DNA from: Thermotoga neapolitana DSM 4359
GTDB taxonomy: Bacteria > Thermotogota > Thermotogae > Thermotogales > Thermotogaceae
NCBI RefSeq assembly: GCF_000018945.1
Contig: NC_011978.1
Span: 652,729-716,728 of the forward strand
Direction: 5' to 3'
Length of the DNA stretch: 64,000 nt
Translations under genes and position numbers: made by a program
Notes under the pieces: generated by a model
Database searches by the model: none
What the model saw: only the letters and a program-made list of their open reading frames with translations
What the model was told of the DNA's origin: nothing
Part shown: piece by piece, positions 38,254 to 39,449 of the stretch
Numbering within the stretch: position 1 is the stretch's first letter
Layout of the letters: the number at the start of each line of letters is the position of its first letter

Positions 38254-38277
38254 CCCCGCCGACCGGCGGGGTTTTTT
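38254..38277 (+). terminator. Rho-independent terminator after the ferritin-like gene
   Basis: CCCCGCC and GGCGGGG form a 7-bp GC stem around a 4-nt loop, followed by T6. Confidence 0.9.
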
Positions 38278-38285
38278 CGAGGTGA

Positions 38286-39449
38286 GTGAAAATAGTTCTT
38301 TCACTTCTGATCGGATATCTTCTTGGAAGTATTCTGCCCGCTTATTTTCTTGTGAAGGCATTTGTCGGAGTGGACGTGAGGAATGTGGGAACAAAGCACG
38401 CTGGAACCACAAACGTCTACAGAATTGCCGGATTGTGGCCGGCTGTTGTGACGGCTTTTTACGATACAACGAAAGGTGTTCTTGCTGTTCAAATTTCAAA
38501 GGCGATGGGCCAGTCAGATTTTATAGCACTTCTGTCTGGCTATTTTGCTGTGATCGGACACATCTTTCCCTTCTATCTGCAGTTCAGGGGAGGAAAAGGA
38601 GCGGCAACGAGTGTAGGACTTCTTCTTTTCTTTCTCTGGAATACCTGGTTAAGGTTTCCAGTATGGTGGTTTCTTTCGGATCTGTTTGTCCTTTTGTCTC
38701 TTGTACTTGTTCTCCTCTGGAGCAGCAAAAAGGGAGACGTCGTCGGTTTGTTTGTTCTTCCTGCACTTGGTTTGCTCCTTTCTCTGAGGAAGGTTGATCA
38801 CCTCTGGTTTCTCTGGGTCCTTGTGGGTACACTCTGGATGATCAATCTGAGAAACGTTCTTGAGGAAAAGGTCATCAAACTGGGGGAGGCTGGCTGGAGA
38901 GTTCTGATCAGACCCTCTGCTTTTTTGCTCCTTTTTCTTGGATTGAAGATGGAAAAGGAAAAATTTTTGCTTCTTGTGGTGATAGTTTTCTCCATTTTTC
39001 TTCTGGCAGACATCTCAAGGTTGATCAGCCGCAGAATTCACAGGTTTTTCCACGAGGAACTCGAGAACAGAATCTACAGAAGTGGTGAAAGAAAGAAGAT
39101 CTCCTCCATGACACTGTTTCTACTTGGAGTACTTCTCAGTTTTCTGCTCTTTGAAAAGGAAATCTCTTTCGCAGCAGGATGTTTTCTCATCTTCGGTGAT
39201 ATGACCGCAAAGGTTGTCGGGGTCTCCTTTGGGAGGAAAAGACTGTTTCACAAAAGTTTCGAAGGAACGATGGCGGCCTTTGCCGTTAACCTCTTTGTTG
39301 CTTATGCGATCTTTCTTTCGGGATTGATGGATTTTCTTCCTGTCTTTCTTGGCAGCGTGGTTGCCACAACATGTGAGGTTCTTCCTCTGTCGATAGATGA
39401 CAACGTATCCGTTCCTGTTTTCTCTTCTCTTGTGATGAACCTGTTTTGA
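38286..39449 (+). CDS. PlsY-type acyltransferase fused to a CTP-dependent lipid-kinase-like domain
   Basis: A 387-residue membrane protein with two parts. Residues 1 to about 200 are PlsY, which transfers acyl groups from acyl-phosphate to glycerol-3-phosphate. Its motifs are SILPAYFLVK, VRNVGTKHAGTTNVYR, YDTTKG, and HIFPFYLQFRGGKGAATS. The C-terminal 180 residues contain LIFGDMTAKVVGVSFGRK followed by KSFEGTMAAF, the signature of the dolichol kinase/DGK1/phytol kinase/CdsA-like superfamily, which uses CTP. Both halves would act on phospholipid precursors in the inner membrane. The start is a GTG with a ribosome site that is rather close, so the exact start is uncertain. Confidence 0.82.
   Translation: MKIVLSLLIGYLLGSILPAYFLVKAFVGVDVRNVGTKHAGTTNVYRIAGLWPAVVTAFYDTTKGVLAVQISKAMGQSDFIALLSGYFAVIGHIFPFYLQFRGGKGAATSVGLLLFFLWNTWLRFPVWWFLSDLFVLLSLVLVLLWSSKKGDVVGLFVLPALGLLLSLRKVDHLWFLWVLVGTLWMINLRNVLEEKVIKLGEAGWRVLIRPSAFLLLFLGLKMEKEKFLLLVVIVFSIFLLADISRLISRRIHRFFHEELENRIYRSGERKKISSMTLFLLGVLLSFLLFEKEISFAAGCFLIFGDMTAKVVGVSFGRKRLFHKSFEGTMAAFAVNLFVAYAIFLSGLMDFLPVFLGSVVATTCEVLPLSIDDNVSVPVFSSLVMNLF

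Follow-up and report, generated by a model that had tools for sequence, protein, structure and literature searches.

The systems closest to the gene reported here are the acyltransferase PlsY and the lipid kinases of the SEC59/DGK1/VTE5 type. In the PlsY of Aquifex aeolicus (5xj5; PF02660, TIGR00023), Ser35, Arg45, Lys104 and Asn180 form the phosphate clamp, Ser142 and His177 contact the 2-OH, and the acyl-phosphate hole is made by His92 and the Loop 3 amides, according to PMC5700162. Among the kinases, yeast Dgk1 requires Arg76 and Asp177 for activity (PMC3486869), and PfPolK, a Plasmodium prenol kinase that uses cytidine triphosphate (CTP), has a model with an Arg-Lys-His clamp (PMC10849223). 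Here we describe a gene in a 64,000-nucleotide stretch of Thermotoga neapolitana DSM 4359 (contig NC_011978.1, positions 652,729 to 716,728; the window), where a single unbroken open reading frame (ORF), 38286-39449 on the forward strand, encodes both a PlsY-fold half and a predicted kinase-like half of the CTP-transferase clan (Table 1). Both domain families are already known. As far as the open-licence literature shows, in which we found no description of them, the fusion, its spread and its altered sites are new.

An initial annotation of the window had proposed such a fusion, and it is real: there is one ORF, PF02660 covers its first half, and it has near-full-length relatives. From sequence comparison, we lean towards the view that the protein combines a CTP-dependent lipid kinase with a PlsY-fold module for the handling of a lipid or acyl phosphate, and does not serve as a lysophosphatidate synthase.

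Table 1. Positions in the window of the fused gene, its two halves, its key residues and the upstream hairpin
Feature	Position	Strand	Basis
Whole fusion gene, 387 residues, GTG start, TGA stop at 39447-39449	38286..39449	+	ORF listing, sequence, full-length relatives
PlsY-fold half, residues 1-198	38286..38879	+	PF02660 at residues 9-180; model match to PlsY 5xj5
Thr36-Lys-His38 in place of PlsY Ser35 and Asn37 (predicted altered glycerol-3-phosphate pocket)	38391..38399	+	Alignment to Aquifex PlsY; PMC5700162 Table 2
His92, phosphate-hole histidine, invariant	38559..38561	+	83/83 fused, 59/59 stand-alone
Gly102-Gly103-Lys104 (Loop 3); glycines invariant, Lys104 present here and in 14/83 fusions	38589..38597	+	Alignment
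Asn187-Leu-Arg-Asn190 in place of PlsY His177 and Asn180; histidine lost	38844..38855	+	His in 0/83 fused vs 57/59 stand-alone
Predicted CTP-transferase-clan kinase-like half, residues 204-387	38895..39446	+	A5 profile vs L063; C-half model vs CdsA and CarS
Arg205-Val-Leu-Ile-Arg209, counterpart of the RKxxH clamp, His replaced by Arg	38898..38912	+	R209 in 81/83 fused
FGDMTAKVVGVSFGRK, nucleotide-site motif with Asp305 and Gly312, residues 303-318	39192..39239	+	D305 and G312 each in 82/83 fused
KSFEGT motif, residues 323-328	39252..39269	+	K323 in 80/83, E326 in 79/83 fused
Glu364 ... IDDNVSVP motif, residues 364-377	39375..39416	+	E364, D372 and N373 each in 82/83 fused
Terminator-like hairpin and T-run, directly 5' of the ribosome-binding site of the fusion gene	38254..38277	+	Sequence

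The PlsY-fold half and its altered pocket

The match of the first half to PF02660 is strong (E 1.1e-30, 107.4 bits, above the curated cut-off of 24.1). In a predicted model of the full-length protein (predicted local distance difference test, pLDDT, 89; 16 sequences) this half aligns to Aquifex PlsY with Z 17.5 and a root mean square deviation (rmsd) of 3.4 over 183 aligned residues. Against the PlsY equivalog TIGR00023, the protein scores 114.7 bits, below the cut-off of 137.2; the stand-alone PlsY of the same genome, used as control, scores 181.1 bits. The initial annotation had credited the first half with all PlsY motifs, which goes too far, given this score and the replacement of Ser35, Asn37, Ser142 and His177 of the Aquifex enzyme by Thr36, His38, Asp151 and Asn187. 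At other positions the window protein has Thr42, Arg46, His92, Lys104 and Asn190. The six glycerol-3-phosphate pocket positions (Ser35, Arg45, Lys104, Ser142, His177 and Asn180 in Aquifex) thus read T, R, K, D, N and N, and more of this pocket is left here than in most fused relatives. The stand-alone PlsY of the genome has the canonical residue at every scored position. In Aquifex PlsY, the changes S35T, N37H and H177N leave 17%, 10% and 1.7% of wild-type activity (PMC5700162, Table 2).

After removal of identical ORFs, 83 distinct fused proteins were available (27 from Thermotogota, 19 from further genomes of the genome_contigs set and 37 from Asgard archaea), and these were compared with stand-alone PlsY proteins in an alignment to Aquifex PlsY. 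His177 is found in 57/59 stand-alone proteins and in none of the 83 fused ones, two of which have a gap at the position. Lys104 is kept in 14 fused proteins versus 57/59, Arg45 in 36 versus 57/59 and Asn180 in 53 versus 55/59; at position 104 the fused proteins have Q, R, K, V, E and others. Ser35 is kept in 13/83 versus 41 of the 43 aligned stand-alone rows, positions 35 and 37 resting on 43 rows because an alignment fault leaves 16 stand-alone Asgard rows gapped there. The loss of Ser142 (present in 9/83) says little, since only 26/59 stand-alone rows have Ser at this position. His92, Gly102 and Gly103 are present in all fused and all stand-alone proteins. Judged from these alignments, the glycerol-3-phosphate pocket is altered across the whole fused family and the predicted lipid-phosphate site is intact.

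The loss of His177 does not depend on one alignment. In a second alignment all 83 fused proteins have a letter at the position and none is His. In an alignment-free check, 55/59 stand-alone proteins have the pattern H..N close to the domain end, versus 4/83 fused ones; in these four it falls within the 60 residues before the kinase half and, by eye, at least about 17 residues ahead of the His177 position. Some His lies within the segment aligned to 165-189 in 29 fused proteins, in many cases, mostly Asgard, some five residues ahead of the His177 position; a register shift in these proteins is unlikely, though conceivable. A quick tree of the PlsY part (143 rows) places fused and stand-alone proteins on opposite sides of one branch, for which the Shimodaira-Hasegawa-like approximate likelihood ratio test (SH-aLRT) gives 84, under the tool's star level of 95.

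The kinase-like half

The assignment of the second half to the SEC59/DGK1/phytol-kinase type, as made in the initial annotation, agrees with the motifs, the profile comparison and the structural alignment. The motif strings it named, FGDMTAKVVGVSFGRK and KSFEGTMAAF, are present at residues 303-318 and 323-332. The half carries the motifs GDxxAxxxGxxFG, K(S/T)xEG and E...DDNxSVP, which we take to be those of dolichol, diacylglycerol, phytol and farnesol kinases; in this it is like the SEC59/DGK1/VTE5 kinases, the assayed members of which lie outside our alignment. D305 and G312 are invariant across the 16 rows of alignment A1. Among the 83 fused proteins, R205, D305, G312, G316, K323, E326, E364, D372 and N373 are each present in 79-82, G304 in 80 and Ala308 in 47, and the window protein has both of the last two. 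D305 and R205 are likely the counterparts of Asp177 and Arg76 of Dgk1, which is itself outside the alignment.

Unlike the SEC59/DGK1/VTE5 kinases, the fusions have a PlsY fold attached and mostly read R(V/K/I/T)xxR in place of the RKxxH clamp: Arg205 is kept in 82/83 and Lys206 in 11/83, and His is replaced by Arg in 81/83. Position 209 is His in 50 of 53 comparison ORFs of a stand-alone kinase-like set that includes two HAD-joined proteins, the fused Thermotogae protein L111 (the same gene as L016; without it, 50/52), and L107, a stand-alone ORF that has Arg at 209 and is placed among the fusions by the C-half tree. As far as the alignments tell, each half therefore carries a fusion-specific change, the loss of His177 in one and the His-to-Arg change of the clamp in the other.

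The C-half profile (A5) matches the stand-alone kinase-like protein L063 at 98.1% (E 9.8e-14, 126 columns) and L062 at 97.1% (E 5.6e-11, 96 columns), both of which are called kinase-like from their motifs alone. The match to the CdsA of the same genome is weaker (E 6e-5), with the D...G..FG and KxxEG region aligned. When the C-half is predicted alone (pLDDT 95.5; 45 sequences) and the 777 best PDB chains from Foldseek are re-aligned to it, the top rows are 4q2g/4q2e, with Z 10.3 (rmsd 7.3, 172 aligned) and Z 10.2 (rmsd 6.8, 169 aligned), and the third is 5guf (Z 7.4, rmsd 2.7, 95 aligned), the next row having 6.3. We take 4q2e/4q2g to be the CdsA of Thermotoga maritima and 5guf to be an archaeal CarS. 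Residues 208-387 of the full-length model align to CdsA with Z 10.1, rmsd 7.2 and 173 aligned. The initial annotation had allowed that the second half might be only extra helices with no CTP-binding site; instead CdsA and CarS are its best rows and the clan motifs are intact. Foldseek with the whole model has CdsA at rank 42, the PDB sequence and Foldseek searches listed no solved SEC59-type kinase, and a PDB sequence search with a stand-alone kinase-like protein gave no match.

PF01148 (CTP_transf_1) does not match the window C-half; with a limit of E 1 it matches three of 16 relatives, 4.7e-5 being the best value. On six kinase-like proteins that have no PlsY half, it scores below cut-off in three and does not match the other three; this model thus covers the kinase-like group poorly. 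The fusions have a different C-terminal motif from CdsA, and a pattern that we take to be the CdsA C-terminal signature is absent from all 83 and present in the CdsA of the same genome (L003). The fold of the C-half as a member of the CTP-transferase clan, which rests on models and profiles, is established less firmly than the join, the PlsY fold and the loss of the pocket.

Spread, origin and genomic setting of the fused family

An assembly artefact is excluded as the cause of the join, because homologues in two genomes of the same genus are 88% and 85% identical and, among the 61 genomes searched, 16 besides that of the window have near-full-length matches (17 with it). Among 103 Thermotogota genomes, 42 match the C-half profile (A2) at E 0.001. 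The fused gene is present in 27 of these (open frames of 386-421 residues), fragments in G034 and G059 that resemble its N-terminal end being left out of the count. One further genome, G030, has only a broken copy with in-frame stops (L061), which indicates that the fused gene is able to decay within the phylum. The remaining A2 matches are weak and fall on CdsA-like or stand-alone kinase-like proteins, and no strong A2 match in the 103 genomes is a stand-alone C-half. Thus, as to the generality of the fusion, a question raised in the initial annotation, it is conserved but not phylum-wide. The copy of G003 (L006:1498-3936) has an altered C-terminal end and lies just 5' of a 408-residue TnpB-like transposon ORF, as judged by eye.

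The fusion is absent from three of six other genomes of the genus (G001, G004 and G006), in which not even a broken copy is found at E 0.001. T. maritima has membrane-spanning lipids, and two PlsY genes are given for it in Table 4 of PMC8788747. The initial annotation had suggested that the fusion could relate to the unusual lipids of Thermotoga; given its patchy presence in the genus and phylum and its occurrence in archaea and other phyla, this link is not supported.

Outside the Thermotogota, a scan of genome_contigs with profile A3 (one genome per species, 84,980 species) yielded 118 confirmed stretches, and the 80 best loci among them were used. PlsY fusions were found in Bipolaricaulota, WOR-3 (Caldifarciminota), Caldisericota, Calditrichota, Poribacteria, Berkelbacteria, Lokiarchaeota, Woesearchaeota and Pacearchaeota, and at many other A3 loci the C-half has no PlsY part attached. 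At two loci (L085:2345-3558 and L095:654-1690) both halves are in overlapping frames, either from a sequencing error or as a genuine split. Two Bathyarchaeota proteins (L097:2269-3558 and L126:1984-3339, both on the plus strand) join the same kinase-like domain to an HAD phosphatase-like (SerB-like) domain. Another multi-domain lipid protein with a domain of this clan is L062:691-2133 (minus strand; 481 residues), whose SEC59/phytol-kinase-like domain (RKxxH, GDGLAGLIGKSFGK, KSLEG) is paired with DUF92 (PF01940, E 1.3e-64) and not with PlsY; we take the pair to be VTE5 and VTE6 of phytol salvage in one protein. G062 has a 481-residue open frame with a match of the L062 type.

In the Asgard archaea, 87 of 227 genomes have a PF02660 match. 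Among the matches listed, fused genes of about 390-430 residues occur in at least 29 genomes, in some of them as two or three copies in tandem, and the stand-alone PlsY-family genes of other Asgard genomes are mostly 215-290 residues long. In 24 of the 29, all PF02660 matches are accounted for by the fused copies, so that the fusion is the sole PlsY-family gene found there; the other five (G253, G261, G262, G269 and G271) have one further PF02660 match each, beyond the matches listed. Seven Asgard genomes (L204, L206, L207, L211, L213, L215 and L220) have two or three neighbouring fused copies that differ in their pocket residues. Nine others (G179-G187) have 4 to 13 PlsY-family matches each, of stand-alone length among the matches listed.

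PlsX (PF02504) was found in none of the 227 Asgard genomes, the same search being positive in 8 of 14 control genomes. Elsewhere it was found in 13 of 21 genomes, a set made up of 18 that carry the fusion or the split form, two Bathyarchaeota and that of the window. The fusion or split form is the sole PF02660 match in G116, G118, G119, G120 and G122, of which G116 alone has PlsX; G105, which has a second PF02660 gene, is without PlsX. Since the genomes in the Asgard and PlsX counts are mostly metagenome assemblies of unstated completeness, these absences count as a pattern only.

The fused proteins are one family of near-single origin. In a quick tree of the C-half (138 rows) the fused label needs four changes, at least two of them forced by starred branches, and two changes in all if L085 and L095 count as fused. 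The Asgard copies cluster with the Lokiarchaeal L078 and L079. Ten fusions of a second Thermotogota type (A4) have an unsure placement, because they sit on a long branch. The A2 and A4 profiles match over 195 columns at E 4.7e-55, but the A4-type L019 and L025 are also inside A2.

The initial annotation had asked for a second, stand-alone plsY, and this is present: the genome has one further PF02660 gene, the canonical PlsY, together with one PF01148 gene (CdsA), one DgkA-type kinase (PF01219) and PlsX. In each of the 17 fusion-bearing genomes among the 61, the fusion is accompanied by one or more additional PlsY-family genes of about 200-290 residues. Three divergent stand-alone PlsY-family paralogues were seen in fusion-bearing genomes (L155, L165 and L166), and L155 and L165 are without His177. 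We also considered the fusion as a substitute for an absent diacylglycerol or undecaprenol kinase and rejected this as the main reason, since PF01219 is found in 98 of the 103 Thermotogota and none of the five genomes that lack it carries the fusion. With PF01219 near-universal in the phylum, diacylglycerol and undecaprenol become less likely as the sole reason for the fusion.

The T-run of the upstream hairpin ends eight bases from the start codon of the fusion gene, which leaves no space for a promoter between the two. A comparable hairpin lies 5' of the fusion gene in all five loci inspected by eye, that of the window among them. Pfam scans covered 20 of 77 candidate ORFs flanking fused genes and 10 of 55 adjacent to stand-alone kinase-like genes; 9 of the 20 and 1 of the 10 have no Pfam family. 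A TFIIB gene is upstream at both Lokiarchaeal fusion loci, and an HD_5-domain gene is upstream at L068 and L074.

Function and significance

We suggest that the fused proteins would form an ancient family of integral membrane enzymes with two domains. In each, the C-half would be a CTP-dependent kinase of the SEC59/DGK1/phytol-kinase type, with a membrane lipid alcohol as substrate. The N-half would have the PlsY fold with the deep lipid-phosphate (acyl-phosphate) hole kept and the glycerol-3-phosphate pocket lost; for this reason it is probably not a glycerol-3-phosphate acyltransferase. Instead, it may bind a lipid or acyl phosphate and then act on, or pass it on to, a bulkier partner, perhaps the substrate or product of the kinase half. 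The kinase core and the phosphate hole are constrained and the glycerol-3-phosphate pocket is not, and the simplest account of this is a lipid kinase with a PlsY-fold partner for a different acceptor. Catalysis by either half, CTP as donor, coupling of the halves and the action of both sites on one lipid are inferences. A fuller version, in which an ancient bacterial and archaeal lipid enzyme couples a CTP kinase to a PlsY-fold site re-aimed to another acceptor for successive steps on one lipid, is possible, and we hold it tentatively.

Several points weigh against this proposal. Foldseek ranks CdsA first for the C-half, yet at E 0.49; for helical bundles, Z values near 10 fall below the caution level and are not decisive; the window C-half alone has no Pfam match; and a PDB sequence search with the C-half profile gave no match. 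The His-to-Arg change in the clamp might signal changed or lost kinase activity. Among the 20 and 10 flanking ORFs scanned, there is no recurrent neighbour, apart from the TFIIB and HD_5 cases, and no lipid gene. In Aquifex PlsY, H177A retains 6.5% of activity, and 2.2% of PlsY homologues naturally carry Asn at this position (PMC5700162). Since the PlsY-fold half of the window protein keeps Arg46, His92, Lys104 and Asn190 and the H177A enzyme is still active, the protein may acylate glycerol-3-phosphate weakly.

The initial annotation proposed a bifunctional enzyme that makes lysophosphatidate with one half and phosphorylates diacylglycerol or a polyprenol with CTP in the other, so that two phosphatidate routes meet in one protein. 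The PF02660 match, the acyl-phosphate site kept in all 83 proteins, PlsX in the genome and the retained Lys104, Arg46 and Asn190 are in its favor. Yet His177 is lost throughout the family and Ser35 in most of it, the score is below the PlsY equivalog cut-off, a further PlsY-family gene (canonical in the genome of the window) accompanies the fusion in each of the 17 genomes, a PF01219 kinase is already there in nearly all Thermotogota, and PlsX was found in no Asgard genome. We therefore regard this enzyme as improbable, and lysophosphatidate synthesis by the first half is not supported. Alternatively, the PlsY-like half could be a scaffold or lipid-binding regulator of what is simply a CTP-dependent lipid kinase. 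Its pocket residues drift, with position 104 variable and Arg45 kept in 36/83, beside a nearly invariant kinase core; but His92, Gly102 and Gly103 are invariant over many phyla, which suggests that the phosphate hole is still in use, and we consider a scaffold unlikely, though deserving of some weight.

The retained hole and lost acceptor pocket would also suit a phosphatase, in which the PlsY-fold half hydrolyses a lipid or acyl phosphate and, with the kinase, balances a lipid alcohol against its phosphate. The joining of the same kinase-like domain to an HAD phosphatase-like domain in the two Bathyarchaeota proteins points the same way. However, we identified no hydrolytic catalytic residue and know of no PlsY-fold phosphatase, so that this pairing is quite improbable. 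Finally, the C-half could transfer a cytidylyl group, as CdsA and CarS do, and make a CDP-lipid (cytidine diphosphate-lipid) from a lipid phosphate bound in the PlsY-like half. Though CdsA and CarS are the solved relatives that structural alignment returns, the CdsA signature is absent from every fused protein and the C-half profile is closer to the stand-alone kinase-like proteins than to CdsA, and we give this the smallest chance.

A lipid kinase with a PlsY-fold partner, the function we prefer, would matter for how these genes are counted. Because they match PF02660, the fused genes will tend to be taken for glycerol-3-phosphate acyltransferase genes. PMC6431249 names PlsY orthologues from Lokiarchaeum and from two further Asgard archaea as relevant to the lipid divide, and Asgard plsY is taken up in the discussion of PMC13400652. 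If the Lokiarchaeal PlsY is of the fused type, with the glycerol-3-phosphate pocket lost and no PlsX, the evidence on the lipid divide changes its meaning; if the site is indeed re-aimed, a Lokiarchaeal 'PlsY' would be no evidence for bacterial-type ester lipids. The fused family is thus a test case both for a PlsY active site turned to another acceptor and for a putative prokaryotic CTP-dependent lipid kinase.

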